From Draconibacterium sp. (GTDB lineage: Bacteria; Bacteroidota; Bacteroidia; Bacteroidales; Prolixibacteraceae), in assembly GCA_011620585.1 (NCBI GenBank), contig WOYV01000118.1, positions 1 to 64,000 of the forward strand: DNA of 64,000 nucleotides, in the 5' to 3' direction. The translations under genes were made by a program, and so were the position numbers. The notes under the pieces were generated by a model. The model was given only the letters and a program-made list of their open reading frames with translations. It made no database searches and had not been told where the DNA came from. Positions 14,972 to 33,672 of this stretch are shown piece after piece. Position 1 is the stretch's first letter. Every line of letters starts with the position of its first letter.

Positions 14972-15040
14972 TAAAGTTACGCCAGTGTGATTATGTTAAT
15001 GTTACACAATTCTAAATAAGAGTTACATCATTCACACATT
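14972..15040 (-). promoter_or_regulatory. 40-bp stress-island promoter element, copy A
   Basis: Read on the minus strand, 15040-15001 begins AATGTGTGAATGATGTAAC and ends AATTGTGTAAC, with TGTAAC half-sites 21 bp apart. A -7 box TAACTTTA (14979-14972) starts 27 bp after the second half-site. It drives the 55-residue gene and the stress/glycan operon down to 8232. This is one of the best-matching copies and served as the reference for the others. Confidence 0.88.
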
Positions 15041-15146
15041 CTGTAAACGGTGAACAATGCAATATTTAATCTAAAACAGTTTCTGCTAACAGTAATAGTG
15101 AGAAATGGAAAGTGTGCATGAAAAAGCAAAGAGACAGTGTTCGTAA

Positions 15147-15710
15147 TTACGCTTTGTTCTGCAAACTGAACTTTGAAATATCGACTACCGACAGAAGGCA
15201 TTTTTGATCCTCCCCGGTTACTACTCCTTCGATGTAAACCGAACACAATATTTTTTGATCATACCCCAGTAATACTTCACACGATTCTTTTGCATTGCTG
15301 GTATATACTTTTCTAAAAAAGTTATTAAAAACGGGCTTCGAATTTTCTGAAACAAAGAGTTTGAAGTTGCTGTCAATTAAACTAAACCGTCTTTCTCCGA
15401 GTATTTCAGCACCTCTGAAGTTCAACTCGCAGATAGCGCCTTCCTGGTCAAGAGTAAAATAGCCCATTGGCGATAAATCGAATAACATAGTGTATTTTTT
15501 TAGCGCTGTTTCGGCAGTTTCATACGCCTGACGCAGTTCTTCGTTCTGCATTTCCAATTCTATCTGGTGTACCTGCAACTCGTGAAGGAGTTTTTCTGCA
15601 TCGTTTTCTTTCATAGAAAGATTTTCTTTTTGTTGTTTTTCTTTGAGTAGTTCTTCCGCTTTTTGGCGCAGCATTTTCGCATTTGTAAAATCCATTTCCA
15701 GTCGATCCAT
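15147..15710 (-). CDS. Stand-alone PAS-domain protein
   Basis: The 187 residues comprise an N-terminal coiled coil (about 10-75, including LLHELQVHQIELEMQNEELRQ) and one PAS domain (about 75-180: YTMLFDLSPMGYFTLDQEG to LLSVVDISKF). There is no kinase, output or HTH domain. It closely resembles the N-terminal 190 residues of the hybrid kinase at 33664-37269, so the two may be paralogous sensor modules. It starts 4 bp after the CheB-CheR-PAS gene ends, which suggests cotranscription and perhaps hetero-oligomerisation through the coiled coils. Ligand or cofactor cannot be read from sequence. Confidence 0.85.
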   Translation of the reverse strand: MDRLEMDFTNAKMLRQKAEELLKEKQQKENLSMKENDAEKLLHELQVHQIELEMQNEELRQAYETAETALKKYTMLFDLSPMGYFTLDQEGAICELNFRGAEILGERRFSLIDSNFKLFVSENSKPVFNNFFRKVYTSNAKESCEVLLGYDQKILCSVYIEGVVTGEDQKCLLSVVDISKFSLQNKA

Positions 15711-15714
15711 GACT

Positions 15715-18700
15715 CTATTTTTTTGTGATCATTATTACTCCCAATGGCAAATTCAGATTATTTAAAAGGACATTAAACGTCCATTCGATTTCCAACTCAA
15801 CAGCGCCTGTTTTAAGAGCCTGCATTTTTATTTTATTTTTACCTGCCTGTTTTAGCAGGTGGTTCATTTGTTGTTCTGTTTTATGCCGAACAGGTTCGGG
15901 AACAAATAGTTCCAAATAATTTTTATTGATAACATCATCGCGCTTTTTACCAAAAACTTCTTCTGCTACTGAATTAAACTCCAATACTTTCCAATCGGGA
16001 GATAACTTGATGAATACAACGGGGGACAGATCGAGTAACAGATGGTTTAGCTGTTCTGTTTCGTTCAATTTCTCGTCTGCCTGTTTTAAATCTGAGATAT
16101 TAATAAAAGTGATAACCAGTCCGTCTATTCTGTCGTCGAAAGTGCGATAAGGCATGATACGCGTTGAAAACCACTTGCCGTCCTTTGTCGGAATTTGTTT
16201 CTCAATAAAAATAAGCGTTCTTAAAACTTCAATTGCATCTTCAGCCAAATCGGGGTAAATGAGTTGGGAAACCTGGTCGGTAAAAGGCCGCCCGATGTCG
16301 CTTTTTATAAGTTTGAAAATTTTGGTAGCCTGGTCGGTATAACGGCGGATGTTTAATTCCTTGTCGAGAAATAAGGTGGCAATATCGGTGCTGTTCAACA
16401 AATTCTTCATGTCGTTGTTTACCCGTGAGTAATCATCAACTTTCGACTGTAATTCGGCATTAACGGTTTGAAGTTCTTCATTCAGGCTTTGCATCTCTTC
16501 TTTCGAAGTGGTCAGCTCCTCGTTGGTCGACTGCAGTTCTTCGTTGGTCGACTGCAACTCCTCGTTGGTTGATTTCAACTCTTCCTGCGAAGTTTGCATT
16601 TCTTCCATAATGTTCTGTACTTCCTCGCGGGTGTGCTGTAGTTCTTCTTCAAGCTCTTTTTCCCTGGCGCTGGCAAGCGTTTGTTTTCCTTTTTTTAAAT
16701 GTGCTTTATTTTCAGAAGTTTTGGCAACATCCGTAAAAATGATCAATATCTTCCCTAATAAAGCATCCGGCTTATTTACCCACTGAATAGTAACGTTTAA
16801 TAGGATGGTGTTTCCGTTTGTGCCAATTTTAACGTTGTGTAAAGCCTCAGCTTCCTTTTTCATGACTACCTTGCGGAAAGCAATGGCAAAATCGTTTTGG
16901 AAGCCTGGCCTGAGCATGGCAAAAATATTCAGGTTTGCCTTTCCTACGGCTGGTTCCAGGTATTTTCCCGTTCGTCCGCTGATGTATAAAATATCGCCAT
17001 TCTCGTTTACCAAAACTCCGGCAGGCGAAAATTGATTCAGTAACAATTGATCAACGAGCGTTTGAATATTCATAATGGGCTTGTCGGGTATTTTATTTTC
17101 GTTAATAGTAAGTTTTGCCCGTGAAAAGGATGAAGGAAAATCGAACAATTCCGGGTTCAGGTTCGAATTACCACGTTTGTAAATTTTCAGGCTGGAATAT
17201 TCGGGTGTAAACAGATGACTTTGCGTCCCCAGTGTTTCTGAATTTCCCAGTAGCAAAATCCCTTCGGCGTTAAGACTGTAGAAAAACAAGCCAAGTAGTT
17301 TTTTTTGCAATTCGGGATCCAAATAAATAAGCAGGTTCCGGCACGAAATAATATCGATATTGGTAAAAGGCGGGTGCATTATAATGTTGTGCTGTGCAAA
17401 TATAATGGTTTCCCTTATTTCAGTATTGATCCGATAACCTTCATCTGTTTTGGTAAAAAAACGGCTTAACCGTTTTGGCGATACATCGGCCTCGATATTT
17501 ACAGGGAAAAGTCCCTTTCTGGCTGTTTCAATAGCATCGTTATCAAGGTCGGTCGCAAATATTTGTAAAGTAAATCCTCCATGCAGATTTATTTGTTCCA
17601 CCACTTCCTTAAATGCAATGGCCAGCGAATAAGCCTCTTCGCCTGTTGAGCAACCTGGTACCCACACTCTTATTGTCGTGCCAGGTTGGTGTGAACCAAC
17701 TTTTTCCGGAATAATTGTTTCTTTAAATTTTTCCCAAACCAGGGGATCGCGGAAAAAATGGGTAACACCAATCATCAGCTCTTTAAACAGGATATGCACT
17801 TCTTCCGGGTTTTCCTGCAAAAAGTGAACGTATGAATTGATTTCATCAATTTTATGCACGCCCATTCGTCTTTCGATACGTCGGTAAACTGTATTCTTTT
17901 TGTAGAGCGAAAAGTCGTTTCCGGTGTGTGTGCGCAGTAATATGATAATTTTATCCAGTGCACTTTTGCTGTCTTTTCCTATGGTCCGGTCTGTTTTAAC
18001 CGAGGGCACATGGTCAAGAAATTCAATTAATTTTAAATGAATTTCGTTGGGCGGGGCAACAATATCAACTAACCCCGAATTAATGGCATTGCGTGGCATG
18101 CTGTCGAATTTTGCCGTTTCGGGTTCCTGAACAATCGCAACTCCATTTTTTTCTTTTATCGCACCGATTCCAATACTTCCGTCGGAACCCATTCCCGAAA
18201 GAATAATGCCAATGGCAAATTCTTTCCGATCGTCGGCCAGCGAACGAAGGAAAAAATCGATGGGGAGACGCAATCCCCTTACCTCAATTGGCTCGAACAG
18301 ATAAAGAATCCCCTTTAAGATTGACATGCTTTTGTTGGGAGGAATAACATACACGCAGTTGGGCTGTACTTTCATCCGGTCTTCCACCTGGAATACTTTC
18401 ATTTTGGAAATTCGCTGAAGCAATTCGGGTAGCATCCCTTTATGTGTAGGATCTAAATGCTGAACGACAACATAAGCCATCCCGCTGTTTTCAGGCACAT
18501 TCGCTAAAAGTTGTTCCAATGCTTCCAATCCACCGGCCGATGCACCGATTCCAACAATTGGGAAAAGGATCGTATTTACACCAGGATCTTTTCCGCCGGG
18601 CTGTGCTACTGGTTTTGTTTTTTTAATTTTCAGAGCTTCTTTTTTTTAGGTTTATTACGTCGTGGTCAATATTTAATTTGTTGTAAGCCAGTTTGTTGTT

Positions 18701-18724
18701 GTATGTCAAACTCGCCGTGGACAT
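15715..18724 (-). CDS. CheB-CheR-PAS fusion sensor, with apparent frameshift in an A8 tract near the 5' end
   Basis: The main frame, from at least 18528 to 15715 (937 residues), contains a CheB methylesterase domain (His in VVQHLDPTHKG, Asp in GMGSDGS), then a CheR domain (YRRIERRMG, WVPGCSTGEEAYS, SCRNLLIYL). A coiled coil with repeated STNEELQ units (DNA 16514-16581) and two PAS domains complete it. The CheB nucleophile motif GIGASAGGLEAL lies just upstream in the same frame, but no ATG, GTG or TTG precedes it before a stop. A good ATG at 18722-18724 is one base out of frame. Skipping one A of the A8 tract (T8 at 18640-18647) joins it seamlessly. No chemoreceptor or CheA lies nearby, so a role in non-chemotaxis stress signalling is inferred. 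Confidence 0.85.
16514..16581 (-). repeat. 21-bp near-tandem repeat encoding STNEELQ units
   Basis: Three near-identical 21-bp units (core ctcgttggtcgactgcag on the plus strand) encode STNEELQ heptads in the coiled coil between the CheR and PAS domains. Heptad spacing is expected of a coiled coil, and the high DNA identity suggests recent unit duplication that could change helix length in whole heptads. Confidence 0.75.
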
Positions 18725-18923
18725 CAGGCCAGGCAGCGCCAAAACCTGAATTGCAGCAATTTACCTGATATTTAGGAACCAATCAGCAAAATATTTATAA
18801 ATATACGCATTCCAACTAAGATTTGTTAGGACAAGACTATTCAGGATCATTACTACAACAGGGTAGAAAGTTGCTCAATCTTTAAAGCTTTTCTTCTCAT
18901 CATTTTTCGTAATGATTTAAATG

Positions 18924-18990
18924 CTAAAATAAAAAACCCAGAGTATGGTTTTGTTACACAACTCTGGTAAAAATTTACATAATTCCCACT
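18924..18990 (-). promoter_or_regulatory. 40-bp stress-island promoter element, copy B (degenerate)
   Basis: On the minus strand this copy reads AGTGGGAATTATGTAAA, then GAGTTGTGTAAC, keeping the exact 21-bp half-site period. The -7 candidate TATTTTAG (18931-18924) keeps the 27-bp distance. It points at the CheB-CheR gene, placing that sensor in the regulon. It matches the consensus less well than most copies, so it is less certain. Confidence 0.6.
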
Positions 18991-19068
18991 ATTTATTAGC
19001 AAAAGCAGGTGTCACTGCAATGTTCCGAAAAACTATTTCTTCTGAAATCCAATTTAGAAACCACTCAA

Positions 19069-19137
19069 AATGTGAGAATGATGTAACTCTTAATCCAAGT
19101 TGTGTAACATTTCGTGGTTGAACTGAGCCTACCTTTA
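19069..19137 (+). promoter_or_regulatory. 40-bp stress-island promoter element, copy C
   Basis: This plus-strand copy reads AATGTGAGAATGATGTAAC, then CAAGTTGTGTAAC, with half-sites 21 bp apart. TACCTTTA at 19130-19137 lies 27 bp after the second half-site. It is the only plus-strand copy and precedes the 49-residue protein and the OmpA lipoprotein, so element orientation follows gene orientation. Confidence 0.86.
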
Positions 19138-19177
19138 TTTGATGTAAATAACTGGTTAACCCTTTAAAAATACACAA

Positions 19178-19327
19178 ATGGGAAAAAATGAAATGCTGAA
19201 GGACGACTTGGAGAATGCGCTTTTGCAATCCTTATCTGAGCAGGATGTTGACAAGCTCAGAAATCAGCTCATACGCATTCAGAAAACTTCAGCAGAAGGC
19301 TTAACAAGTTACATGATTGAAATTTGA
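19178..19327 (+). CDS. Small soluble protein, 49 residues, unknown
   Basis: The gene starts with ATG at 19178 and ends with TGA at 19325-19327. The product is hydrophilic and helical: MGKNEMLKDDLENALLQ, then SLSEQDVDKLRNQLIRIQ, ending SYMIEI. The start lies about 41 bp after the -7 box of promoter copy C, and the OmpA lipoprotein gene begins 23 bp downstream. I do not recognise a family. Real status rests on position behind a conserved promoter and on a clean short frame with a suitable start. Confidence 0.55.
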   Translation: MGKNEMLKDDLENALLQSLSEQDVDKLRNQLIRIQKTSAEGLTSYMIEI

Positions 19328-19350
19328 ACGAAACAATTAAAAGATTTAAA

Positions 19351-20022
19351 ATGAGAAAGCTAAGAATGAGTTTAATTATTCTGTTAAGCGCAACTTTTAT
19401 TTTTGCGGGTTGCGCCACATGGAATAAAACACAGAAAGGAGCGGTAATAGGTACCGCAGCCGGTGGTGCAGCCGGCGCAGTAATTGGAAGAACTTCGGGC
19501 AACACGGCCCTGGGTGCGATAATCGGCGCTGCAGTTGGTGGCGCTTCGGGAGCTGTAATTGGCCGGCAAATGGATAAACAGGCCGAGGAAATTAAAGAAT
19601 CGGTACCCGATGCAAAAGTTGAACGTGTGGGCGAAGGTATTGTAGTTGAATTCAGCAACAATGTACTGTTTGCATTCGACAGGTCAAATCTGTCCTCTGA
19701 CGCTAAAACAAACCTCGACAAACTGGTTGTTGTTTTAAATACTTATCCTGATACCAATATCGAAGTACAGGGACATACCGACAGTAAGGGAAGTGAGACG
19801 TATAACCAGACTCTTTCGGAGCAACGGGCCAACAAGGTTAGCAGTTACCTGTCGGGTAGAGGCATTATTTATGATCGCTTTTCAATAAAAGGGTTTGGTG
19901 AGGATTTGCCTAAATATTCCAACGACACCGCAGAAGGCCGTTCACAAAACCGCAGGGTTGAATTTTTAATTACTGCCAATGAAAAAATGAAGGCAGATGC
20001 ACAACGAAATGCCTCAAATTAA
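19351..20022 (+). CDS. OmpA-family lipoprotein with glycine-zipper domain
   Basis: I start at ATG 19351 (223 residues), where a lipoprotein signal begins: LIILLSATFIFAGC, lipobox FAGC. Residues of about 35-85 form a glycine zipper (GAVIGTAAGGAAGAVIG, repeated as GAIIGAAVGGASGAVIG). An OmpA C-terminal peptidoglycan-binding domain follows (VLFAFDRSNL, VQGHTDSKG, LSEQRANKVSSYL, KGFGEDLPKYSN, GRSQNRRVEF). It should be anchored in the outer membrane and bind peptidoglycan, stabilising the envelope. It is the second gene behind promoter copy C and overlaps nothing; the barrel protein follows 19 bp later. Confidence 0.92.
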   Translation: MRKLRMSLIILLSATFIFAGCATWNKTQKGAVIGTAAGGAAGAVIGRTSGNTALGAIIGAAVGGASGAVIGRQMDKQAEEIKESVPDAKVERVGEGIVVEFSNNVLFAFDRSNLSSDAKTNLDKLVVVLNTYPDTNIEVQGHTDSKGSETYNQTLSEQRANKVSSYLSGRGIIYDRFSIKGFGEDLPKYSNDTAEGRSQNRRVEFLITANEKMKADAQRNASN

Positions 20023-20041
20023 TCGAATGAATATACATAAC

Positions 20042-20722
20042 ATGAAAACAAAATTATTTTCTTTAACACTGACATTTATTCTTATTGCAACCCTGGCAAT
20101 GGCCCAGGACACGCGGAATTCGAAAACTTCTTTTGGTATTCTTGGAGGGGTAAGCCTTCAGAATTTGAACGGGAAGGATATGAGTGGCAATAAACTTGAA
20201 AACGACATGATCGTAGGTTATCAAGCCGGGGTGAATATTCAAATTCCCGTTGCACCACAATTTTACTTTCAGCCGGGTTTACTTTTCAGTACAAAGGGTG
20301 CAAAAAATACACGAGATCTAATTTCAAATACCTATAAGCTTTCGTATATCGAATTACCTTTAAATTTTGTGTATAAAGCGCTGGTTGGAAATGGCTATTT
20401 TATGATTGGGTTTGGGCCATACGTGGCATACGGAATTGGAGGCAAGTCAATATACGAAAGTGGTTCAGTAACCCTTGAAACGGATATTGAATTTAAGAAG
20501 ACCGTTGAATCAGGTGATCCTTTGACAACAACTTATGTTAAACCATTTGATGCCGGCGCCAACCTGTTTTTTGGATATGAACTGGCAGGGGGATTATTTT
20601 TACAAATGAACACGCAACTTGGCCTTATCAATATCAATCCGGAAGATATGCGGATTTCTGGCGATGATAAATCAACTCTTAAAAATACAGGATACGGGCT
20701 TTCGCTTGGTTACAGGTTTTAG
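20042..20722 (+). CDS. Outer-membrane beta-barrel protein (PorT/OMP_b-brl type)
   Basis: ATG at 20042 gives 226 residues with a clear signal peptide (KTKLFSLTLTFILIATLAMAQ). Mature sequence begins with SFGILGGVSLQNL and continues as alternating beta strands (QFYFQPGLLFSTKGAKN, YIELPLNFVYKALVG, YFMIGFGPYVAYGIGG), ending YGLSLGYRF with a terminal Phe, a standard outer-membrane assembly signal. This matches the porin-family barrels common in Bacteroidota. It follows the OmpA lipoprotein closely and precedes a rho-independent terminator, so the copy-C transcript probably ends here. Confidence 0.87.
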   Translation: MKTKLFSLTLTFILIATLAMAQDTRNSKTSFGILGGVSLQNLNGKDMSGNKLENDMIVGYQAGVNIQIPVAPQFYFQPGLLFSTKGAKNTRDLISNTYKLSYIELPLNFVYKALVGNGYFMIGFGPYVAYGIGGKSIYESGSVTLETDIEFKKTVESGDPLTTTYVKPFDAGANLFFGYELAGGLFLQMNTQLGLININPEDMRISGDDKSTLKNTGYGLSLGYRF

Positions 20723-20740
20723 TTCTTTATATTTCTGATT

Positions 20741-20781
20741 AAAAGAAGGCTGTCGTTGTTTTTTCAACGGTGGCCTTTTAA
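20741..20781 (+). terminator. Rho-independent terminator after the OMP gene
   Basis: Plus-strand AAAAGAAGGC-tgt-CGTTG pairs with CAACG-gtg-GCCTTTT around a T6 loop. The stem lies 19-60 bp after the stop codon at 20722 and is followed by an AT-rich stretch. The internal tgt/gtg mismatch weakens it somewhat. Confidence 0.65.
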
Positions 20782-20808
20782 AATTTAAAATGAAATATGC
20801 ATCTTATA

Positions 20809-20924
20809 AATCCGGCGGATTTTAATGTTTATAAAACATTCAGGGAATCTACCACACGACCCTGGCCAGGGTCGAACTAAAACTTCATTCATTTTTCCTA
20901 TAAACATTAGATGCCTCTGGCATC
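20809..20924. repeat. Cluster of four short palindromes (REP-like intergenic element)
   Basis: Four inverted repeats lie in 116 bp: AATCCG-g-CGGATT (20809-20821), AATGTTT-ata-AAACATT (20824-20840), the perfect 18-mer CGACCCTGGCCAGGGTCG (20857-20874) and GATGCC-tct-GGCATC (20910-20924). AATGTTTATA also has an inverted partner TATAAACATT at 20900-20909. This dense arrangement in noncoding DNA between convergent genes resembles REP or MITE-type intergenic repeats. No RAYT transposase is in the window. Confidence 0.6.
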
Positions 20925-20963
20925 AGTGTTTCTGTTGGGATTGTATATTTATGGAATGTGTTT

Positions 20964-21518
20964 TTATGTTGAAGAGTTAGGTAGTGGATTTCTCCGCTTC
21001 CGGAAAAACGAAGGGGTTAAACCGGTAATTTTTTTAAACTGATTGGACAAATGGGCCACACTGCTAAAATGCATTTTGAATGCGATATCGCTAAGGGCGA
21101 GATCGGAATAAAGAAGCAACTCTTTAACACGTTCAATTCGCTGGATAATAATATACTTTTCGATAGTAGTGTTTTCTTTTTCCGAAAAAATATTGCTAAG
21201 TGAACTATAACTAACATTCACTTTTTCTCTGATATAATCGGAATAGTTTGGTTTTGGAAGATCATCGGTGAGGTAAACCAACTGATAAACGGCATCTTTA
21301 ATTTTTGTAATGAGCAGGCTCCTTTTATCCACCAATATTTCCAATCCCAAATTTTTGAGGGCAGCATCAAACAACCGAAGTTTCTGGTCCGAAATATCTC
21401 CTTCGAATTCCACTTCCCCTAATTCCACAGTAAGGTGCTTAAGGCCCAGTTTATCCATTTCGTTTTTTACCAGTGTTTTGCACCGGCGACTTTCCATATA
21501 TTTAATTTTCAGAATCAT
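20964..21518 (-). CDS. Small AraC-family transcriptional regulator
   Basis: The 184 residues have an N-terminal domain (KYMESRRCKTLVKNEMDKLGLKH then VELGEVEFEGDIS), typical of a compact AraC subfamily in Bacteroidota. A C-terminal AraC DNA-binding domain follows, with helices around ALSDIAFKMHFSSVAHLSNQFKK and ITGLTPSFFRKRR. I keep the start at 21518 because MILKIKYMESRRCK matches that family's opening. AraC proteins often bind direct half-sites about 21 bp apart next to the promoter. That is exactly the geometry of the repeated element in this island, so this protein is the nearest candidate regulator; that link is inference. It is convergent with the OMP gene and lacks its own obvious element copy. 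Confidence 0.88.
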   Translation of the reverse strand: MILKIKYMESRRCKTLVKNEMDKLGLKHLTVELGEVEFEGDISDQKLRLFDAALKNLGLEILVDKRSLLITKIKDAVYQLVYLTDDLPKPNYSDYIREKVNVSYSSLSNIFSEKENTTIEKYIIIQRIERVKELLLYSDLALSDIAFKMHFSSVAHLSNQFKKITGLTPSFFRKRRNPLPNSST

Positions 21519-21576
21519 TAGAATTCAATAAACTTTGGACCCCTTATCAATGTTCTTATTATTCCCTAAAAATATT

Positions 21577-21759
21577 TTACAATGCAGCAATTGTCTGGCG
21601 CATTTCTTCTCTTGTCATTCCAAGTTTATACCCCAGCATCTCGATCATTTCTGCTTCCTTTCCCTCATGAAAATTTAAATCTTCATCAGTCAGGATCGGG
21701 TACTTTTGTTTAATCTTTTCTTTTTTGCCGTTCCAGTATCCTTTACTATTGTCGTACAT
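21577..21759 (-). CDS. CsbD family small stress protein
   Basis: The 60-residue product reads as a classical CsbD protein: SKGYWNGKKEKIKQKYPILTD, DEDLNFHEGKEAEMIEML, then KLGMTREEMRQTI. The family is strongly induced by general stress and stationary phase in various bacteria; biochemical role is unknown. It is monocistronic, with promoter copy D (21824-21863, -7 box 21795-21802) directly upstream, and the small AraC gene downstream after about 60 bp on the same strand. Readthrough into the AraC gene is possible and would make regulation autogenous. Confidence 0.85.
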   Translation of the reverse strand: MYDNSKGYWNGKKEKIKQKYPILTDEDLNFHEGKEAEMIEMLGYKLGMTREEMRQTIAAL

Positions 21760-21794
21760 CTTTTAATTTTTAAACCAAAGTCAGTAATCCAATA

Positions 21795-21863
21795 TAAAGT
21801 TATGCAAAGCGTATTTTTAAAGCATTACACAATTCTTTCAATTGTTTATATCATTCACACATT
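21795..21863 (-). promoter_or_regulatory. 40-bp stress-island promoter element, copy D
   Basis: On the minus strand the element reads AATGTGTGAATGATATAAA, then AGAATTGTGTAAT. The first half-site has diverged, while the second and the 27-bp spacing to TAACTTTA (21802-21795) are kept. It precedes the CsbD gene at 21759. Confidence 0.82.
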
Positions 21864-21901
21864 CCAAGGTAGCTCCCCAATTAAAATATACCAACAATAA
21901 A

Positions 21902-21929: not shown

Positions 21930-21956
21930 GATTAGCTTGTAAATCAACAAAGTCGA

Positions 21957-22775
21957 TTATTGATACAAAAGCTTATATATTTCCTGTAAATCGGGCGAAA
22001 GGATTACTTCCGTCCTGCGATTATCAGCGCGTCCTTCGGCTGTTGTATTAACGCTTACCGGATGAAACTGACTTTTCCCGGAAGCCGTGATGCGGCTTGA
22101 ATCGAACCCATTATCAATTGTCAGAATACGAACGATAGATGTTGCCCTTGCAGTACTGAGGTCCCAATTATCTTCGAATATTTTTGTGTTAATTGGAACA
22201 TCATCGGTGTGACCATTAATTGCAACCGTGAAATCGTCAGAACTGTTTAATACAGTGGCAAGCGATTTAAGCGCAGCTTTTCCTTTAGAATCGACAACGT
22301 CGCTACCCGATTTAAACAGCAGTTTTTCTGCCAGCGATACATGCACGTTTCCATCCTTCATGTAAACGGTTAATTCGTCGGTTTTATAGTTCTTCAGTGC
22401 ATTTCCGATCGAATTTCTTAATCTGGTGGTTATTTCTGCCTGGGTATCAATAATATCCTGAAGAATGCCAAGCCTTCTTGCCTGTTCTGCAATGGTCATT
22501 TTCGATTCAGATGAACGTATCATCAGGTTTTTTTGAATCAATGCATATTCCTTTTGGATCGTTTCGTTTTCAGTTTTCATGTTGGCATTTTCATCCTTCA
22601 CTTTCATCAGTTGCATGTTGCTTTCATTCAGTTGGCTTTGTGTGTTTGCATTTTCTTTTTGCAGCTTATCGACCCTGGCTTCTGAGGCCATAAATTTCTT
22701 GTTCGATACGCATGAAGTAAATAATAAGCCTGCGGCCAGAGCAAAGAAAGTTACGGTACGGATTGACTTCTTCAT
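21957..22775 (-). CDS. OmpA-family lipoprotein with long coiled coil
   Basis: The 272 residues begin with a lipoprotein signal (TFFALAAGLLFTSC). A coiled coil of about 25-100 (VDKLQKENANTQSQLNES, MKVDENANMK-type repeats) and a C-terminal OmpA domain (KLLFKSGSDVVD, AINGHTDDVPIN, LSTARATSIVRIL, GRADNRRTEVIL) follow. The HTDDVPI variant resembles MotB-like and OmpA-like peptidoglycan-binding domains. It is predicted to be an outer-membrane or periplasmic lipoprotein spanning to the cell wall. Promoter copy E lies directly upstream and a hairpin terminator downstream, so it is a monocistronic member of the candidate regulon. Confidence 0.92.
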   Translation of the reverse strand: MKKSIRTVTFFALAAGLLFTSCVSNKKFMASEARVDKLQKENANTQSQLNESNMQLMKVKDENANMKTENETIQKEYALIQKNLMIRSSESKMTIAEQARRLGILQDIIDTQAEITTRLRNSIGNALKNYKTDELTVYMKDGNVHVSLAEKLLFKSGSDVVDSKGKAALKSLATVLNSSDDFTVAINGHTDDVPINTKIFEDNWDLSTARATSIVRILTIDNGFDSSRITASGKSQFHPVSVNTTAEGRADNRRTEVILSPDLQEIYKLLYQ

Positions 22776-22806: not shown

Positions 22807-22875
22807 GAAAGGTGCGGATATTAAAAGGAGAAAGTGTTACATAACTTCTTGAAAGAGTTACATCATTCACACATT
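22807..22875 (-). promoter_or_regulatory. 40-bp stress-island promoter element, copy E
   Basis: The minus strand reads AATGTGTGAATGATGTAAC, then AGTTATGTAAC, with half-sites 21 bp apart. The -7 candidate CACCTTTC (22814-22807) stands 27 bp from the second half-site. It precedes the coiled-coil OmpA gene, and its distal end reaches within 8 bp of the permease stop codon. Confidence 0.85.
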
Positions 22876-24855: not shown

Positions 24856-25134
24856 TTAGACTTCGGCGGTTTTTGCGTTTTTTTGGGCTTCTTCCGGTTT
24901 CGCCGTTTTTTTATCGGCATAATCAGTAACTTCTTCTTTTACCTTTTCGAATTTATCGTTAACCGAATCGAGTAATTCATCGAATTTTTCTTTTAACGAA
25001 TCATAGTAACGCTCACCTTTTCTCAAAATTCTTTTTCTGGTTCTCGTACCTTTTGCAGGTGCAAATAAAATTCCTGCCAATGCCCCGGCGGCTGCGCCAG
25101 CCAGTAATCCTAATACAACTTTTCCTGAACTCAT
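24856..25134 (-). CDS. YtxH domain-containing protein
   Basis: The ATG at 25132-25134 gives 92 residues, beginning MSSGKVVLGLLAGAAAGALAGILFAP. This glycine/alanine-rich membrane helix followed by KGTRTRKRILRKGERYYD is the YtxH signature. A long charged amphipathic helix fills the rest. The family is linked to general stress in Firmicutes and is widespread in Bacteroidota; it likely sits in the inner membrane with the helix in the cytoplasm. Promoter copy F lies 35-100 bp upstream. Confidence 0.88.
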   Translation of the reverse strand: MSSGKVVLGLLAGAAAGALAGILFAPAKGTRTRKRILRKGERYYDSLKEKFDELLDSVNDKFEKVKEEVTDYADKKTAKPEEAQKNAKTAEV

Positions 25135-25168: not shown

Positions 25169-25236
25169 CAAAGATCAGCCAATATACGCCATTGCTTGTT
25201 ACACAATTTCTAAAAAGAGTTACATCATTCACACTT
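25169..25236 (-). promoter_or_regulatory. 40-bp stress-island promoter element, copy F
   Basis: The minus strand reads GTGTGAATGATGTAAC, then AAATTGTGTAAC, with the 21-bp period. The -7 candidate GATCTTTG (25176-25169) keeps the 27-bp distance. It precedes the YtxH/holin-X/permease unit. Confidence 0.86.
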
Positions 25237-26778: not shown

Positions 26779-27246
26779 TTAATTCACTTTTGTATTATTC
26801 ACTGTAAACCCGGCAAAGGCTTTTCCTAACTCATCCATGTCGCTTTTAAATTCGGTTTTAAATATTTGCCATTTGTCCGTTCCATCATCTGTGTAGTTAT
26901 ACAGCTTAGTTCTTAATTCGCTGTTTCTTTTTTGCAGCTCAGCCAGTTTTTTTTCATACAAGGCTTTATTTTCATCGCTGGCGCCTACAATTTTAACCCG
27001 CAGTTCTTCTATGCTTTTTTCGTTAGCAATTATTTTGTTCTCAAACTCAATTTTAAATTGCTGGAATTCTGTAATTGAATCCTGACGGGCCTGGTTTAAA
27101 TCACTCTTTGCATCTAAAACCTCCATTTTGGCATCAATAACATTTTCTTCAGCATTTTCAAGTTTTTGTGAAGGAGAATTGCAGCCGGTGAAAATTGAAG
27201 CAGCAATAAATGTTGTTACAGCCATTGTTAAAAGTATTTTTTTCAT
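26779..27246 (-). CDS. Coiled-coil lipoprotein
   Basis: The 155-residue product has a lipoprotein signal (TMAVTTFIAASIFTGC). Strongly heptad-patterned helical sequence (SQKLENAEENVIDAKMEV, then ENKIIANEKSIEELR) runs through the central part. The region ALYEKKLAELQKRNSELRTKL continues the coil. It is likely a periplasmic lipoprotein of unknown partner. Promoter copy G (27316-27355) precedes it directly, so it belongs to the candidate regulon. Confidence 0.83.
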   Translation of the reverse strand: MKKILLTMAVTTFIAASIFTGCNSPSQKLENAEENVIDAKMEVLDAKSDLNQARQDSITEFQQFKIEFENKIIANEKSIEELRVKIVGASDENKALYEKKLAELQKRNSELRTKLYNYTDDGTDKWQIFKTEFKSDMDELGKAFAGFTVNNTKVN

Positions 27247-27286
27247 GTTGTCGATATTAACGGTGAAATTTCATTATTACACATTT

Positions 27287-27355
27287 CAAAGATATTTCTC
27301 TTTGATGCCAAAACACTTACACAACTTTGAGTTTTAGTTACATCATTCACACATT
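27287..27355 (-). promoter_or_regulatory. 40-bp stress-island promoter element, copy G
   Basis: The minus strand reads AATGTGTGAATGATGTAAC, then AAAGTTGTGTAAG, with the same 21-bp period. TATCTTTG (27294-27287) is a perfect TAnnTTTG match at the 27-bp position, the best -7 box of the set and the anchor for reading the others. It precedes the coiled-coil lipoprotein gene. Confidence 0.9.
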
Positions 27356-27372
27356 TGGAAAACTACAAACAC

Positions 27373-30300
27373 TTATCTGTTTTCACTTAATTTTAACTTG
27401 CTTATTGACTCGATTGAGAAAACAAACCGGATCCTGTTTTTGAAAGCGCCACTGGCTGATTTAATATTTTTGGAAACCAGTAAGGGAATATAAATTTCGA
27501 AAAAGTCCCAAATACCGGCTTTCACGCCTGCTTCATAAAAAAATGAGGAGTTTTGGACTGTTGTACTACCATGATCGTTCAGTAATAAATTGAGAAAAGG
27601 CTTTACAGGAAACCTGTCCGCATTGCCTGGCAAATTACTGGTAAAGGACAATGAAAAGAGCCATCGGCTGTAACCCAAACTATTGTTTATCGGAGAAACC
27701 AGGTTTCCTTCGGAAAGGGTCATCTGCCGCGATAAGAAGTTTTCGGGAAACACACTGAAACGGTCGGGGTATGTACCCTCGAAATGGTATTGTTCCCGTC
27801 CACTCCTCCCACTCGCCGAAAACGCATAAAAAGGGACTTCAGGATCGGTTTTCAGCATCGTCCCTGTAAAAAGCCGTATATCGAGCCCCTTGTTCGTACC
27901 CCAATAACTTAACCTGTAGTTCAAATCGAGCGAAGTTTTTTGGTACTTTTTTCCTGACTCGAATGAAACCAGCATGTTAAAAGGATTTATTACACGGGTC
28001 TTTTCGAGGAGATAACCAAACTGGAAATAGGAATTCATTTTTGCCTTTTCAGGAAGTTCAATCTGAAACAGATTAGATGCGGCAATGTAATTTGCGAAAA
28101 CGCTGTGGTTTATTGGTTGGGTCATCTCTTTATTTCGAAAATGGAGTTCCAGCCCGGTTTTTAGTTTCTGGTAATTTTGATTCTCCGGCGCTCCGAATTG
28201 CCTTGCCTCCAAAGATATGCGTGCGAGCCGGATAAAATTATCATAAGGTGCAATGTTGTACGCTACCCGGGCAAACCCCGCCAGATTGGAACTCCCAAAT
28301 GCATAAAGAGGCACGACAACATATTCCAGGGGTTTGGGAATAGTAAAGCCATTATGAAAGGCCATGCCCAGCATAAAGCCGTTTTCCCTGGTCCAGTTTA
28401 TGACGGGCATGTACAGGAGTGTGCGCTTTTCGGGATCATCAACAGAAAAAAGAAGCTGAGCCTTCACAGGATCTGCCTTGGGGAAAGTACTGTTTTTTTG
28501 AATGTTATTGTTCATCCTGAAAATTTCAGGCGTAACATGTCCGGGGTCGATAATTAATTTGGAGTAATCGCCAGGCGGGAGGTCGATACTTTTCTGTCCT
28601 TCAAAGCCATCTACCCATTTTTCAAAAAAGACGGAGTCTGCAGTCATCCCTGCAATAAGGAGTGGCGAAACCAATTCCCCCTTATTTTTTATGAGTAATT
28701 GCTGATTTCTGAAGCGAACCATTTTGTAGTCGAGCCGCTTGGTGGAGCCCAGTAAATCGGTAAAAAACCAATTTAAATTTTGTCCGGATTGTGTTTCAAA
28801 AATTACCCGAAGATCATTGGGTTGGGGATGACCCGATTTCCATTGTCGGAAATATTCCTGCATGGCGGCGTCAAAAACAGGATCGCCAAGATAAGCGCGG
28901 AGATAATTGAAAGCAGTTGCAGCTTTGTTGTAAATCATCAGTCCGTAATTCAATCCGGTATATTCCGCTGCCGGCAGGTTGATTGGTTGCTCCAGGTTGT
29001 AGCGCGCCTGAACCAGCCATTCCAATTCCTGTATGCGTTGGATTGGCAATTTATCGACATGTATAAATTCAGCCAGCGTTCTGTTTTTTACGTAAACTTC
29101 CCAAAGTTTTTTGCCGGGATATTTTTCGTGCAGATACCGGTCGGTATAGGCGCTGGTAATACTTTCGTCCATGAATGGGTATTGCCGCTCATTTGATCCC
29201 AGCGCGCTGTAAAACCAGTTATGGCAAATTTCGTGAGAAATTACTTCGTCTAATGAATAAGCGCCGTCTGCCAGGCCGATCACGGTAATACCGGGATATT
29301 CCATCCCGTCGCCGGACGTGAGGGCGCTTTGAACAGCCGTGAAATTTTGATAGGGATAATCGCCAATTTTGGCTGAAAACCAATAGATTGCTTCGCCGAC
29401 ATAATGGATGGCATCTTCCCAAAGATCAGCTTGTTTATTTGTAAACAAAACCATGGTGGTTATTTCCCGTCCGGAGTTGGGGAGTTTAACCGTCCCTTTC
29501 TGTACATGGAACCGTTTATCGGCAAACCAGGCAAAATCATGTATTTTATCGGCGGTATAACGGAGTGTTTTCAATTGCTTCGAAGAAAGCGGAAAACCAG
29601 TTTTAGAAGAATTGCCAGTTTTGATCCACGAAGTGTCGGCTGCAAGTGTTTCCAGCATTTCAATTTCGCTGTCGGTTTGAAGGTTTCCCGATGCTCCCAC
29701 GATGTAATTGGCGGGCAAAGTTATACGCACATCAAAGCCCCCAAACTCGGAATAAAATTCGCCCTGATCGAGGTAAGACATTGGGTGCCAGCCTGACCGG
29801 TCGTAAACGGCAGGCTTGGGGTACCATTGCGAAATTTGATAGGATTCGCCAATGTGGCCCAGCCTGGAAGTAACTCCTTTGGGAATTTTTACTCGAAAAG
29901 GTGTGGTAATAAGTAGGCTGTCGCCCGAAATCAGGGGAAGCTCCAGGTTAATTCGGCAAATGTCGGGCTGGCCGGGCAATAATTCCCAGCGAACTTTTCT
30001 GCCATTTACTTTAAAGTTGAGTGAATCGATGGATCCTCTTAACTCCGGATCATTAAATAACTTTTCCTTTCCATACCCTTGAAACAATTGCCTGGCTAAA
30101 GGAGTGTTGTTGTTTGAATACGCGTTTGGCCATAAATGGAAATATAAAAAATGGAGCGTGTCCGACGAGTGGTTGATGTATTCAAGGGTTTCGAACGCGT
30201 TTAACTCATGAAGCTGATCGTTTAGCGAAACCTGAATTTTGTAGTTGACCTCTTGCTGGAAATATTCCTGGGATAAAACTTCGGAATAAGACCCGATAAA

Positions 30301-30426
30301 GAACAGGTAAATGAAGATGAAATGAAGTGTTGAAAGGAGGCGGGTTAATCTCTTGTGATTCTTTGGATTTGAACCTGTTTTTGCATTTTTTGTCATTGAA
30401 ACCTGCTGGAGATTTGAATACTTCAT
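27373..30426 (-). CDS. M1-family metallopeptidase (aminopeptidase N-like)
   Basis: The 1017 residues open with a basic stretch and a signal-like helix (LLSTLHFIFIYLFFIGSYSEVLSQ). The M1 substrate motif GMEYPGIT corresponds to the GAMEN exopeptidase region. HEICH near residue 397, followed by 18 residues and Glu, gives the full HExxH-X18-E zinc site. The long C-terminal half is beta-rich and barrel-like, unlike classical PepN, so it may be surface or outer-membrane associated. It is the last of three genes (31912, 31504, 30426) read leftwards with gaps of 49-72 bp. Confidence 0.9.
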   Translation of the reverse strand: MKYSNLQQVSMTKNAKTGSNPKNHKRLTRLLSTLHFIFIYLFFIGSYSEVLSQEYFQQEVNYKIQVSLNDQLHELNAFETLEYINHSSDTLHFLYFHLWPNAYSNNNTPLARQLFQGYGKEKLFNDPELRGSIDSLNFKVNGRKVRWELLPGQPDICRINLELPLISGDSLLITTPFRVKIPKGVTSRLGHIGESYQISQWYPKPAVYDRSGWHPMSYLDQGEFYSEFGGFDVRITLPANYIVGASGNLQTDSEIEMLETLAADTSWIKTGNSSKTGFPLSSKQLKTLRYTADKIHDFAWFADKRFHVQKGTVKLPNSGREITTMVLFTNKQADLWEDAIHYVGEAIYWFSAKIGDYPYQNFTAVQSALTSGDGMEYPGITVIGLADGAYSLDEVISHEICHNWFYSALGSNERQYPFMDESITSAYTDRYLHEKYPGKKLWEVYVKNRTLAEFIHVDKLPIQRIQELEWLVQARYNLEQPINLPAAEYTGLNYGLMIYNKAATAFNYLRAYLGDPVFDAAMQEYFRQWKSGHPQPNDLRVIFETQSGQNLNWFFTDLLGSTKRLDYKMVRFRNQQLLIKNKGELVSPLLIAGMTADSVFFEKWVDGFEGQKSIDLPPGDYSKLIIDPGHVTPEIFRMNNNIQKNSTFPKADPVKAQLLFSVDDPEKRTLLYMPVINWTRENGFMLGMAFHNGFTIPKPLEYVVVPLYAFGSSNLAGFARVAYNIAPYDNFIRLARISLEARQFGAPENQNYQKLKTGLELHFRNKEMTQPINHSVFANYIAASNLFQIELPEKAKMNSYFQFGYLLEKTRVINPFNMLVSFESGKKYQKTSLDLNYRLSYWGTNKGLDIRLFTGTMLKTDPEVPFYAFSASGRSGREQYHFEGTYPDRFSVFPENFLSRQMTLSEGNLVSPINNSLGYSRWLFSLSFTSNLPGNADRFPVKPFLNLLLNDHGSTTVQNSSFFYEAGVKAGIWDFFEIYIPLLVSKNIKSASGAFKNRIRFVFSIESISKLKLSENR

Positions 30427-30475
30427 GGCATATGCCGCAGTATTCCAACCCCTGTTTTTAAAGGTTCTGGGCCTT

Positions 30476-31504
30476 CTATTTATTTTGACGGTTCATCGGC
30501 TGATGAAGTTGTTCTTCTTTCTGAGTAAGCCCCCGTTCTTGAACCTGGATGTTTTGAATTGATTGTTGACGTGGAAGTTGTAAACGATATTGCCGATATA
30601 TTCTCCTGGATCTCCCCGGCAGAACTTGCGTATTGTCCTGGATATTATCTTTTGGGAATATTGTATTTTCCCTAAAAGATTCAACTCTTTCTTTGGGAGA
30701 TTTTACGTCCCGAAAGTCCGTTATTTCCGATGGTGCACATCTTTGATTTATAACCCTGTTCGATTCAACCAGGGGCCTGTATAATTCCAGTCGGTTATTG
30801 TCTAATACTTGTCCTGGCTTGTTGTAATCCCTGATTTCAACGCTGCGGAATGTCCTGCCGGTTATACGTTGCGCTTGTTGTAAAGGTGGTCCGAAAATAT
30901 ATGTTGTATTGCGCCTGTTATCGTTGTTTTTATTGTTAATTACAGAAGAGTTTCTGATAATCTTTCGATGGGTGAATGTGTTTACATAGTAGTTATCAAT
31001 ATTTGATTTGCCAAAATCGCTGTATTGTACAAAATTCCAATGCTTAAGGTCTTCATATCGGCTGTTGAAATTCATAGCGATGTTCATTCCGGGGCTCATG
31101 GGCGCCCAACCGTAATACCCATGAGCCTTTCTCCAGACAACCCACGAAGGCCCCCATTCACTATCGGGAACCCAAAACCATCCGTAATAATCATCGTAAT
31201 CCCACCGTCCGTAATGAAATGGCGCCCAACCCCAGGAGTAAGCCGATACCCATGTCCAGCCATAGCCAGTCAGTACCCACTGTCCGGCAGTGGAATAGGG
31301 AGCAAAATACGCATCCACATTCGGAATCCAGACATAATCGTAATTCGGATAGTCGACCCATAGCCCATAAGGGCTTAATTCGTCATAAAAAACCTGAAAA
31401 CTGATATAATCCTGCTGTTGCTGTGCTGATAGCGATTGAACCAAAAATAAAGGGTGAATGTATATTATAAACAGTACAGCTCCTATTTTAAAGAGAGTTT
31501 TCAC
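30476..31504 (-). CDS. DUF6600/YXWGXW-type secreted protein
   Basis: The 342-residue protein has a signal peptide (about 1-28, ending SLSAQ) and an aromatic domain with repeated Trp-Gly and Tyr-Gly motifs. Examples are ELSPYGLWVDYPNYDYVWIP, GYGWTWVSAYSWGWAPFHYG and WDYDDYYGWFWVPDSEWG. This is the DUF6600 or YXWGXW pattern seen in secreted proteins of many Gram-negatives. A glutamine- and arginine-rich C-terminal tail looks disordered. It is envelope or surface located; function is unknown. It lies between the 111-residue membrane protein and the M1 peptidase. Confidence 0.8.
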   Translation of the reverse strand: MKTLFKIGAVLFIIYIHPLFLVQSLSAQQQQDYISFQVFYDELSPYGLWVDYPNYDYVWIPNVDAYFAPYSTAGQWVLTGYGWTWVSAYSWGWAPFHYGRWDYDDYYGWFWVPDSEWGPSWVVWRKAHGYYGWAPMSPGMNIAMNFNSRYEDLKHWNFVQYSDFGKSNIDNYYVNTFTHRKIIRNSSVINNKNNDNRRNTTYIFGPPLQQAQRITGRTFRSVEIRDYNKPGQVLDNNRLELYRPLVESNRVINQRCAPSEITDFRDVKSPKERVESFRENTIFPKDNIQDNTQVLPGRSRRIYRQYRLQLPRQQSIQNIQVQERGLTQKEEQLHQPMNRQNK

Positions 31505-31576
31505 TTTGTCGGATTCTTAAAAAATTATTCTTTTAAAATTTTACAATCAGTATCGCAGGTTTTTAAAGATTACAGA

Positions 31577-31912
31577 TCAAACCAAAAGGATAACCAGGAT
31601 AATAATTAGAACCAAAGCAAGGCCACTAATAACAACGGTCCCTCCGCTTTTCTTTACATTCTCCTTAATCTCTTTCAGTTCTTTTCTTAGTTCCTTCCGA
31701 TCTTTGGCATTTAGTTCTGATTTATCCATATTCCGGATTTCTTCAACACGTTTTGTCAATCGGCTAATTTCCTCTTCCGATAGTTTGTTTTCGGTTTTTA
31801 CCGGAACCGCAGATTTATCAGCTTCCGGTTTTACATCCTTTGTTCCTGCAAATACCATTGCTGAACTCAGGGTGAAAATCATTACAATTACAAAAAAAAT
31901 TACCTTTTTCAT
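31577..31912 (-). CDS. Small exported protein with C-terminal membrane anchor
   Basis: ATG at 31910-31912 gives 111 residues: an N-terminal signal-like segment (VIFFVIVMIFTLSSAMVFA), then a charged helical middle (EEEISRLTKRVEEIRNMDKS). A C-terminal hydrophobic helix (VVISGLALVLIIILVILLV) completes it. The layout suggests a periplasmic coiled coil tethered to the inner membrane. The upstream extension to 31984 would overlap promoter copy H and is rejected. No family is recognised. Confidence 0.72.
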   Translation of the reverse strand: MKKVIFFVIVMIFTLSSAMVFAGTKDVKPEADKSAVPVKTENKLSEEEISRLTKRVEEIRNMDKSELNAKDRKELRKELKEIKENVKKSGGTVVISGLALVLIIILVILLV

Positions 31913-31941
31913 TTTGTTTATTTTTAGTGAAAATTTATAGT

Positions 31942-32015
31942 GAAAGGTAGTGGATGCCACTTGAATCGAGGTGTTGTTACACAATCCTGATTATAAATCA
32001 TATAAATCATACATT
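31942..32015 (-). promoter_or_regulatory. 40-bp stress-island promoter element, copy H (diverged)
   Basis: The minus strand shows AATGTATGATTTATATGAT, then AGGATTGTGTAAC. The second half-site is perfect, the first eroded, and the best -7 candidate TACCTTTC (31949-31942) lies 32 rather than 27 bp away. It precedes the 111-residue protein and the genes beyond it. This is the weakest copy with respect to geometry. Confidence 0.6.
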
Positions 32016-32041
32016 TAGTAACTTCACTCTTTTTCAGGAAG

Positions 32042-32260
32042 CTAAATCCGGGCCTTTTTACTGAGTGCAAAAACAGCAATTCCCCCTACAATTAAAATTA
32101 CTCCAACAATAGGCGGCCATTGAACAGTGTGGCTTTTTTCGGCGCTAATTTCAATCGGGCCCAGATCTACCACCTTTTCTTTGGTCAAATAGTCAAATCC
32201 TGTGTAAACAATCATTATAAATCCAATTGCGATAAGTACAATTCCAATGGTTTTTTTCAT
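32042..32260 (-). CDS. Small two-span membrane protein, 72 residues (DUF3185-like)
   Basis: The protein has two hydrophobic segments (TIGIVLIAIGFIMIVYTGF and PPIVGVILIVGGIAVFAL) separated by KEKVVDLGPIEISAEKSH. The overall layout resembles DUF3185-like and related mini membrane proteins; the family call is tentative. It has its own promoter element copy I just upstream. Confidence 0.65.
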   Translation of the reverse strand: MKKTIGIVLIAIGFIMIVYTGFDYLTKEKVVDLGPIEISAEKSHTVQWPPIVGVILIVGGIAVFALSKKARI

Positions 32261-32293
32261 TTTACTGGTTTTTATGATTAAATTTCAAGTTCT

Positions 32294-32361
32294 CAAAGGT
32301 TCGCGTCTTTATTTAGGTAGGGATACATAATCCCGGATAAGAGTTAAATCATTCACACATT
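32294..32361 (-). promoter_or_regulatory. 40-bp stress-island promoter element, copy I
   Basis: The minus strand reads AATGTGTGAATGATTTAAC, then GGGATTATGTATC. AACCTTTG (32301-32294) follows at 26 bp. Both half-sites carry a mismatch, but the AATGTGTGAATGAT block is intact. It precedes the 72-residue membrane protein. Confidence 0.75.
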
Positions 32362-32469
32362 TTACACCATTGGGATGGTTAACACTTTACAAATACCTGT
32401 CTGATGAAATATAACCTGCGAATTTCAGCTAAAATTCAAAGTAATAATGTGTGGCTGATAAAACTGACA

Positions 32470-32655
32470 TCAGATTTGTATGTTCTGCAAACTATTCAGA
32501 ACACCAAATTCTTTCAGTAACCATACTACCAGAACGATTACAACAACGGCATTAAGAATATTTTTAATGGTGCGTTGCATCGGAATATAGCTGTTAATGA
32601 GCCAAAGGATAATCCCAACAACCAGAATGACAACGATAATAGTTAAAATAGACAT
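32470..32655 (-). CDS. Thivi_2564 family mini membrane protein
   Basis: The 61 residues contain two hydrophobic helices, MSILTIIVVILVVGIILWLI and NILNAVVVIVLVVWLLKEF, around NSYIPMQRTIK. This exactly fits the Thivi_2564 family, tiny inner-membrane proteins of unknown role. Promoter copy J lies directly upstream, which makes it another mini membrane member of the regulon. Confidence 0.85.
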   Translation of the reverse strand: MSILTIIVVILVVGIILWLINSYIPMQRTIKNILNAVVVIVLVVWLLKEFGVLNSLQNIQI

Positions 32656-32693
32656 GCTAATAAATTTAAAAATTGTTGCTTAATAGTATCGTG

Positions 32694-32762
32694 TAAAGGT
32701 CAGGTTCATTCTGATAAAAAGTGTTACATATTTTTCGGCAAGAGTTACATCATTCACACATT
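32694..32762 (-). promoter_or_regulatory. 40-bp stress-island promoter element, copy J
   Basis: The minus strand reads AATGTGTGAATGATGTAAC, then AAATATGTAAC, with exact 21-bp spacing. GACCTTTA (32701-32694) follows at 27 bp. It precedes the Thivi_2564 gene at 32655. Confidence 0.84.
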
Positions 32763-32781
32763 TTCTTTATTGGCAGAAAGT

Positions 32782-33550
32782 TCATTTTGAAATATAAAGT
32801 TCAACTTGTCCGGATTCTATTTTTGAGATAATAACGATGTCGTTAATAATATTGAGCATCCGTGCTCCGCTTTTCTCAATAATTTCAATAAATGCGTGCT
32901 GACCGGCTCCTGTAAAATGAGGCGTTTTGAGCCGTTCAGTAAATTCAAGGATCCCATTCATCGGTGTACGAATTTCGTGGCTCATATTGGCAAGGAAGGC
33001 AGATTTTAGCCGATCACTTTCCCCTGCTTTTTCTTTGGCGTTTATCAATTCCCGTTCATTCTATTAATTCGACGTCATCAAAGCTGGACATATCAGGATG
33101 TCCATAAAGACCGGTAATCTTCCTGAAGTATAACTCAGTATTTTTCGTCATGTGCATAACCGTGTTGAACCTGCAAACAATCATCTTTATCGCCGGCAAT
33201 ATCTTGTGGGATTTTCCAGGGGTCAATAGCACGTTGGTCCTGGAGAATCTTTTTTTCCTGGTTATCAACTATAATAATGCCGCCGATGGAAGAATTAATC
33301 CGGGCTTTAAGAAGAGCTGTTTTCTCACGCAAGACTTTCTGTACGTTTGCGCCCGGTAATATCGCGGATATTGCATTGAATAACATCCTGGCTACCTTCT
33401 AAATAGATATTTCCCACAAACCCTACATGAATTTTTTGCCCATTGATTGTTTCCAGTGGTAAATCTTCATAACGGACGTATTCCTTTTGCTGTAATTCCA
33501 GGAATTTCTCTTTATTCTGAATTTTGATCGTTAGTTGAAGGAGGCATGCT
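32782..33550 (-). pseudogene. Decayed PAS-histidine kinase remnant
   Basis: Read leftwards, three frames each give a convincing piece of one protein. A PAS end (YVRYEDLPLETINGQKIHVG to CNIRDITGRKR) stops at a TGA. A second PAS (INSSIGGIIIVDNQEKKIL, RAIDPWKIPQDI) then shifts frame at LQVQH into a third frame (MHMTKNTELYFRKITGLYGHPD). Finally a HisKA segment with [12 protein letters not shown] ends prematurely at [13 protein letters not shown]. The ATPase domain is absent. The HisKA part closely parallels the intact kinase at 33664-37269. At least two frameshifts and a 3' truncation mark it as a pseudogene. Promoter copy K lies upstream. Confidence 0.82.
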
Positions 33551-33603
33551 TGTTATTTTTAAAGATGTTAACTTTTAAACGGTACCAGAGTTTAACCTAA
33601 TCT

Positions 33604-33672
33604 TTAAATTTCAAGCTTTGTCAATAAAATTTTTTACACAATTCTGAATAATAGTAACATCATTCACACATT
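33604..33672 (-). promoter_or_regulatory. 40-bp stress-island promoter element, copy K
   Basis: The minus strand reads AATGTGTGAATGATGTTAC, then AGAATTGTGTAAA, with the 21-bp period. The -7 candidate AAATTTAA (33611-33604) is poor. It stands between the intact hybrid kinase and the decayed kinase, so promoter decay may accompany gene decay. Confidence 0.7.

Follow-up and report, generated by a model that had tools for sequence, protein, structure and literature searches.

Class II activators, those of the AraC/XylS family included, sit on promoter DNA at about −39 to −34. To our knowledge, Bacteroidota have no RpoS, SigB or PhyR/EcfG, and we know of no general-stress master switch in the phylum. 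In the promoter map of Flavobacterium psychrophilum, the primary sigma factor uses a −7 box, TAnnTTTG, at −12 to −5, and the same source lists, in addition to that factor, sigma-54 and seven extracytoplasmic function (ECF) factors (PMC9723704, as excerpted). Here we describe a 64,000-bp stretch of a Draconibacterium sp. genome (contig WOYV01000118.1, positions 1 to 64,000; hereafter the window), in which a 40-bp element with two TGTAAC half-sites occurs in 11 copies, A to K. Sequence comparison makes it very probable that an autoregulated class II activator of the AraC family uses the element as its operator. This activator, encoded at 20964–21518 and by homologues of this gene, would control stress and envelope genes in scattered lineages of Bacteroidota. 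A first-pass annotation of the window had noted the copies and proposed an activator-dependent regulon; the regulator, its spread, the placing of the operator in a stop codon and the candidate contact residues are new here.

Results

The element in the window and in the genome

A 35-bp matrix, trained on sites from the Draconibacterium sp. genome and from genomes of the same family, gives 11 matches at 9 bits or more in the window, and these are the 11 copies annotated earlier, all in the orientation then assigned, which follows that of the genes (Table 1). Ten are strong (32.9–50.6 bits), whereas copy H reaches 15.0 bits and is not significant alone, because 20 shuffles of the window peak at 17.3 bits. 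TGTAAC-like half-sites lie 21 bp apart, as the first pass had it. According to a hand-made gene list, 84.6% of the region from 14 to 34 kb is coding; 10 of the 11 copies lie wholly outside the listed genes, and copy K overlaps one gene end by 9 bp. The nearest downstream start is 61–75 bp away in ten copies, belonging in the case of copy K to a decayed kinase fragment, and 311 bp away in copy B. Nine copies share one spacing to a −7-like box, which is weak in B and K and clear in the other seven (A, C, D, E, F, G and J); the box is 1 bp closer in copy I and 5 bp further away in copy H, again as claimed, and the ten-gene run assigned to copy A is present as ten same-strand open reading frames (ORFs). 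The names given to the affected genes proved softer: YtxH, OmpA and CheB-CheR are borne out by Pfam, the CsbD assignment of 21577–21759 is sub-threshold with no Pfam match, and 12035–12418, 14042–14245 and 26779–27246 match no Pfam family. Between copies J and K, a decayed histidine-kinase fragment in several frames (32782–33560) resembles, by eye, the kinase at 33664–37269.

Table 1. Element copies, proposed regulator and associated genes in the window
Feature	Coordinates	Strand	Context and evidence
Copy A	15001..15040	-	Before the ten-ORF run 14926 to 8232
Copy B	18953..18990	-	Before CheB-CheR-PAS gene (Pfam); weak −7 box; 311 bp to gene start
Copy C	19069..19108	+	Before small ORF and glycine-zipper/OmpA lipoprotein (YiaD_Gzip_OmpA 1.9e-70)
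Copy D	21824..21863	-	Before CsbD-like gene and activator gene; proposed autoregulation
Copy E	22836..22875	-	Before OmpA-domain protein 21957-22775 (OmpA 5.2e-17)
Copy F	25198..25236	-	Before YtxH 24856-25134 (YtxH 1.3e-19)
Copy G	27316..27355	-	Before coiled-coil lipoprotein-like ORF 26779-27246 (no Pfam match)
Copy H	31976..32015	-	Marginal, 15 bits; −7 box 5 bp further
Copy I	32322..32361	-	Before small membrane-protein-like ORF 32042-32260
Copy J	32723..32762	-	Before Thivi_2564-family membrane protein 32470-32655 (NCBIfam 1.1e-19)
Copy K	33633..33672	-	Contains TGA stop of hybrid kinase 33664-37269; faces decayed kinase fragment
AraC/HTH_18 activator, 184 aa, proposed regulator	20964..21518	-	Pfam HTH_18 3.3e-18, HTH_AraC 2.7e-9; model; fold matches
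Small CsbD/YjbJ-like protein	21577..21759	-	First gene before activator gene; NCBIfam PRK10428 2.1e-5, below cut-off
Proposed operon	8232..14926	-	Ten same-strand ORFs downstream of copy A; includes RDD protein with sub-threshold Usp match

Scanning the 3.94-Mb genome with a fixed pattern (up to three mismatches) gave 17 matches: ten in the window, two each on contigs C75, C13 and C87, and one on C22. The reversed pattern gave none in the same scan, which rules out chance. Seven of these strict sites lie outside the window and had gone unnoticed in the first pass. C13, C22 and C87 are short contigs with a GC content of 35–41%, against 42% in the window, and may not all be part of the Draconibacterium genome, contamination being possible. 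Their sites precede AI-2E transporter, cold-shock, RpiB-like and ferritin-like ORFs.

Promoter geometry

For the anatomy of the promoter we used 151 distinct sites from 86 sources with a matrix score of at least 25; the window supplied 10, other contigs of the genome 8, family loci 68 and named-record loci 65. The consensus is AATGTGTGAATnATGTAACt..t......AATTgTGTAAC, and the ends of the two TGTAAC motifs are 21 bp, or two helical turns, apart. Downstream of the matrix span an nACCTTTG box emerges, whose A falls at +23 and whose TT occupies +26 and +27; the best TAnnTTTG-like match lies at offset 22 in 127 of the 151 sites, at 21 in 22 and at 20 in two. Among the 65 named-record sites alone, T is found at +26 in 64 and at +27 in 65. 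The A and the TTTG of the housekeeping box are conserved (A 89%, T 99%, T 99%, T 80%, G 56%), and a TTG at −33, as in Bacteroidota housekeeping promoters, is present in 0/151 sites at the five offsets examined. The fixed −7-like box outside the matrix span and the missing −33 TTG support the activator-dependent regulon proposed at first. Strong conservation is confined to the element and the −7 box. Setting the box at −12 to −5 (PMC9723704, as excerpted) puts the downstream half-site at about −39 to −34 and its upstream TGTAAC counterpart at about −60 to −55. Both the element and its fixed promoter geometry are shown by sequence.

It is very unlikely that the element is instead the promoter of an alternative sigma factor. 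Two points agree with such a reading: most sites have a −7 box without the first consensus T, and in some relatives (loci L063 and L066) site-driven sigma-factor genes adjoin a homologue of the activator gene. However, the conserved element extends from about −74 to −34, upstream of the established contacts of sigma factors, and its 21-bp direct repeat does not make a sigma motif. Apart from its first T, the box is of the housekeeping form (nAnnTTTG), comparable to the TAnnTTTG of the F. psychrophilum map (PMC9723704, as excerpted).

The AraC-type protein at 20964–21518

By domain content and modelled fold, the product of 20964–21518 is a member of the AraC/XylS family. HTH_18 scores 66.2 bits against a curated cut-off of 33.6 and HTH_AraC 37.4 against 26.6. 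The protein is predicted to consist of an N-terminal ferredoxin-like domain (residues ~1–63) and a DNA-binding domain with two helix-turn-helix (HTH) units (~64–176). In the structure model (pLDDT 87.3) helices of the two HTH units occupy residues 104–115 and 154–165, and the model matches AraC, MarA and SoxS in fold. Among named NCBIfam AraC-family equivalogs, 23 models matched at 0.001 and none at its cut-off. The N-terminal domain gives no more than a weak, tied match to the HMA fold; the HMA CxxC is not found in the first loop, where the window protein, with MESRRC, lacks the first cysteine and retains C13, which is invariant in a 44-member alignment.

Linkage of element and protein

The element and close homologues of this protein tend to occur in the same genomes and at the same loci. 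Among 140 family genomes, strict sites were found in 71, the reversed control in none and a homologue at 1e-25 in 99. At a cut-off of 1e-44, which was picked post hoc, 60 genomes have both, 11 only the site, 4 only the protein and 65 neither (Fisher p 4e-23); the corresponding counts at 1e-25 are 66, 5, 33 and 36 (p 2e-9) and, for the genus of the window at 1e-44, 13, 3, 0 and 21 (p 1.6e-7). These p values overstate independence, because the genomes are related. Across a phylum sample of 247 genomes, 12 have a strict site, and homologues at 1e-44 are found in 8 of these 12 versus 23 of the 235 others (8, 4, 23 and 212; p 9e-6; the G181 homologue, at 1.9e-44, was counted as failing).

At the level of loci, 27 of 29 family loci, which were chosen for the best-scoring homologues, have a site of at least 22 bits on the strand of the homologue and no more than ~320 bp from it; these sites stand 60–320 bp before the start or directly after the stop. 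L088 and L090 have no site, and L063 and L064 look identical. Four loci of family genomes (L068, L072, L078 and L080) have tandem pairs of homologues, each with an adjoining site. The named-record loci, the best 80 of at least 573 relatives from a scan of GTDB genomes, include Flavobacterium, Chryseobacterium, Algoriphagus, Mucilaginibacter, Balneolaceae and Ignavibacteria. Here the matrix finds 94 sites at 20 bits in 38 of the 80 loci and none in shuffled or reversed controls, and a relaxed element adjoins the homologue in 54 of 80, versus 1.45 expected from shuffles. By comparison, the loci of four AraC genes outside the subfamily, from the same genome, have no site (best −3.7 bits).

A profile search of ten site-bearing genomes without a close homologue recovered full-length members of the subfamily in G037 and G091, both of which had already given weaker matches in the family search, and in G150 and G155. 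All four are of the CxxC type, and the relaxed element adjoins the gene in G037 and G091, not in G150 and G155. In G029, G049, G106 and G122, which are 70–85% complete, the same search recovered no full-length member.

Homologues with <60% identity are also found on 28 plasmid records (Hymenobacter, Runella, Spirosoma, Pontibacter and others), and therefore the regulator can travel. Plasmid-borne homologues, as well as the many copies in one island, might make the copies look like debris of a mobile repeat that came to lie between genes by chance. We give this next to no credence, since strong conservation ends with the element and the −7 box, the orientation of copies tracks that of the genes and the spacing is fixed.

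The proposed operator and the stop codon

In 30 of the 80 named-record loci the best downstream match begins precisely 4 bp short of where the homologue's stop codon ends. With the relaxed pattern, 28 elements are stop-embedded in this way, 25 of them with a TGA stop, so that the G-TGA of the element ends the regulator gene. This arrangement is found in 28 of 79 testable homologues, whereas the other genes of these loci show it once in 793. In the genome of the window, three genes have such an end: that of the C75 homologue, that of the hybrid kinase at copy K and, on C22, one for an ATPase.

Covariation of protein and element

From 143 distinct homologues, 96 with an adjoining relaxed element were retained, or 83 at 90% identity. 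Four pairs head the ranking of 3,836 protein–DNA column pairs: residue 105 is coupled to element bases −33 and −32, and residue 109 to element bases −34 and −33; residue 109 had been spotted by eye before the ranking, and residue 105 emerged from it. N109 is accompanied by G at −34 in 69 cases and by another base in 2, while other residues are accompanied by G in 2 and by another base in 10 (p 1.7e-9). On a tree of the 96 proteins, built with both columns excluded, residue 109 and base −34 each change on four branches, two of which are shared (P ~0.002). Both residues lie on model helix 104–115, the predicted first recognition helix, about one turn apart, and are candidate specificity contacts. 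Like the geometry of the promoter, the linkage to the subfamily and the covariation are established at the level of sequence.

A metal-linked branch

Two paralogues on contig C72 (loci L060 and L061), 41–43% identical to the window protein, have the motif MVCxRC intact, as does the C75 homologue, whereas the window protein has MESRRC. The neighbours of one C72 paralogue are ORFs for a copper-type P-ATPase and for an efflux adaptor; beside the other lies a TolC-like ORF (all named from their translations). Neither locus has a site at 22 bits, and a search for repeated elements around both paralogues gave no clear family; a 16-bit variant element follows the gene in L060, and L061 has a relaxed match only, this type of variant being detected solely by the matrix at 15 bits and by the relaxed pattern. 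Several MVCxRC homologues have an AAAAT-type element beside the gene. Among 19 CxxC members with an element, the elements of the nine with N109 start with GT(G/A)A, and those of the ten without it start otherwise.

These data bear on whether the element is read by another DNA-binding protein, such as a response regulator of the kinases in the island or a LytTR protein, with the AraC genes as mere members of its regulon. The island has two sensor-type genes, for the CheB-CheR-PAS protein and the hybrid kinase, LytTR sites are direct repeats ~21 bp apart too, and two near-complete genomes with sites (G031 and G331) yielded no full-length subfamily member. A passive target, however, would not be expected to have the element in its stop codon so much more often than other genes, nor would its recognition-helix residues be expected to covary with the element. 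A variant element is found at some metal-type sister proteins, and the element does not fit the LytTR consensus. We regard such a reader as unlikely. LytTR and CRP-type readings of the element were also tried and rejected, as the direct repeat, compared by eye, fits neither consensus.

Candidate target genes

Candidate target ORFs were assigned by an automatic procedure, in a few cases doubtfully. The loci found by the pattern only (L030–L059) hold 33 sites, with first genes for glycine-zipper OmpA lipoproteins (5), small exported membrane proteins like that at 31577–31909 (5), DUF5670/lmo0937 proteins (4) and sub-threshold CsbD-like proteins (2). Over all loci, many of which are anchored on the AraC gene, this gene itself is the largest group of first genes (29/150). 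Thirty representatives of the other groups include, by Pfam, YtxH, BON, PRC-barrel, ice-binding, AI-2E, baeRF, KaiC-like, CheB-CheR and RNB proteins and two sigma-factor genes; several representatives had no match. The stress label is given because other bacteria have stress and envelope regulons of similar make-up, from which we infer that the site-bearing genes respond to stress.

In close relatives, at two loci (L063:2356-2871 and L066:2517-3023), the activator gene is preceded by a sigma-factor gene (Sigma70_r2; ECF-type) that has a site of its own, which suggests a cascade.

Discussion

We propose that the AraC-type protein binds the two direct repeats 21 bp apart directly, as a dimer or as two monomers. 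Its C-terminal HTH would read TGTAAC in each half-site, and the first HTH would also read GTGAAT in the upstream one. Because the downstream half-site lies where a −33 box would be, the protein presumably takes the place of this box and brings the housekeeping polymerase to a −7 box that stands alone, as in class II activation. Through copy D the activator gene would itself be a target, giving positive feedback, and a stress trigger may be sensed, directly or indirectly, through the N-terminal domain.

Several observations weigh against the AraC protein as the reader of the element. The first T of TAnnTTTG (+22) is present in only ~27% of sites. The post hoc 1e-44 cut-off was set after the data had been seen, 33 family genomes have a homologue at 1e-25 and no strict site, and 23 genomes of the phylum sample have a close homologue and no strict site. 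The site-bearing genomes G031 and G331, as described above, point the same way. For 23 more distant homologue genes (from 20 stretches chosen among the matches listed and the two C72 loci), an adjoining site at 15 bits was found in 9 and none in 14, including L183–L186. The covariation of residue 109 comes down to just two independent joint changes. Finally, the relaxed pattern is loose: 71 of 793 other genes have it next to them as well, mostly on their upstream side; we therefore place weight on the stop-embedded class and the strict matrix. With these points taken into account, we still consider the autoregulated AraC-family activator very probable.

A broader reading, which we regard as evenly balanced, is that in many Bacteroidota a general stress and envelope response is run by AraC activators and not by a sigma factor. 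These activators would have an ancestry in common with metal-linked regulators, the stress branch having lost one cysteine of the metal site, and many would have their operator in their own stop codon, so that regulator and operator would move as one unit.

The analysis provides a specific protein, a precise operator, a list of targets and two candidate specificity residues, which makes the question of stress coordination directly testable. The matrix can be used to annotate such promoters in uncultured Bacteroidota, and the homologues offer an example, in distant lineages, of an operator that overlaps the stop codon of its own regulator.

In the open-licence PMC literature searched, we found no report of this AraC-type regulator or its element; the words AraC and TGTAAC are not found in the main text of PMC9723704, nor is AraC in the excerpted text of PMC11213822. 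The F. psychrophilum map has the same TAnnTTTG −7 box, and its predicted regulons are sigma-based (PMC9723704, as excerpted).

Among described systems, the AraC/XylS class II activators (AraC at araBAD, and MarA, SoxS and Rob) are the nearest in kind to the proposed regulator, which differs from them in having a ferredoxin-like N-terminal domain instead of a cupin arm, in acting at −33-less Bacteroidota promoters and in an operator that often overlaps the regulator's stop codon. With the SigB, RpoS and EcfG general stress regulons, the set of candidate targets has in common, by type of gene family, YtxH, CsbD-like, BON and PRC-barrel proteins and small membrane proteins, whereas the proposed regulator here is an activator and not a sigma factor.

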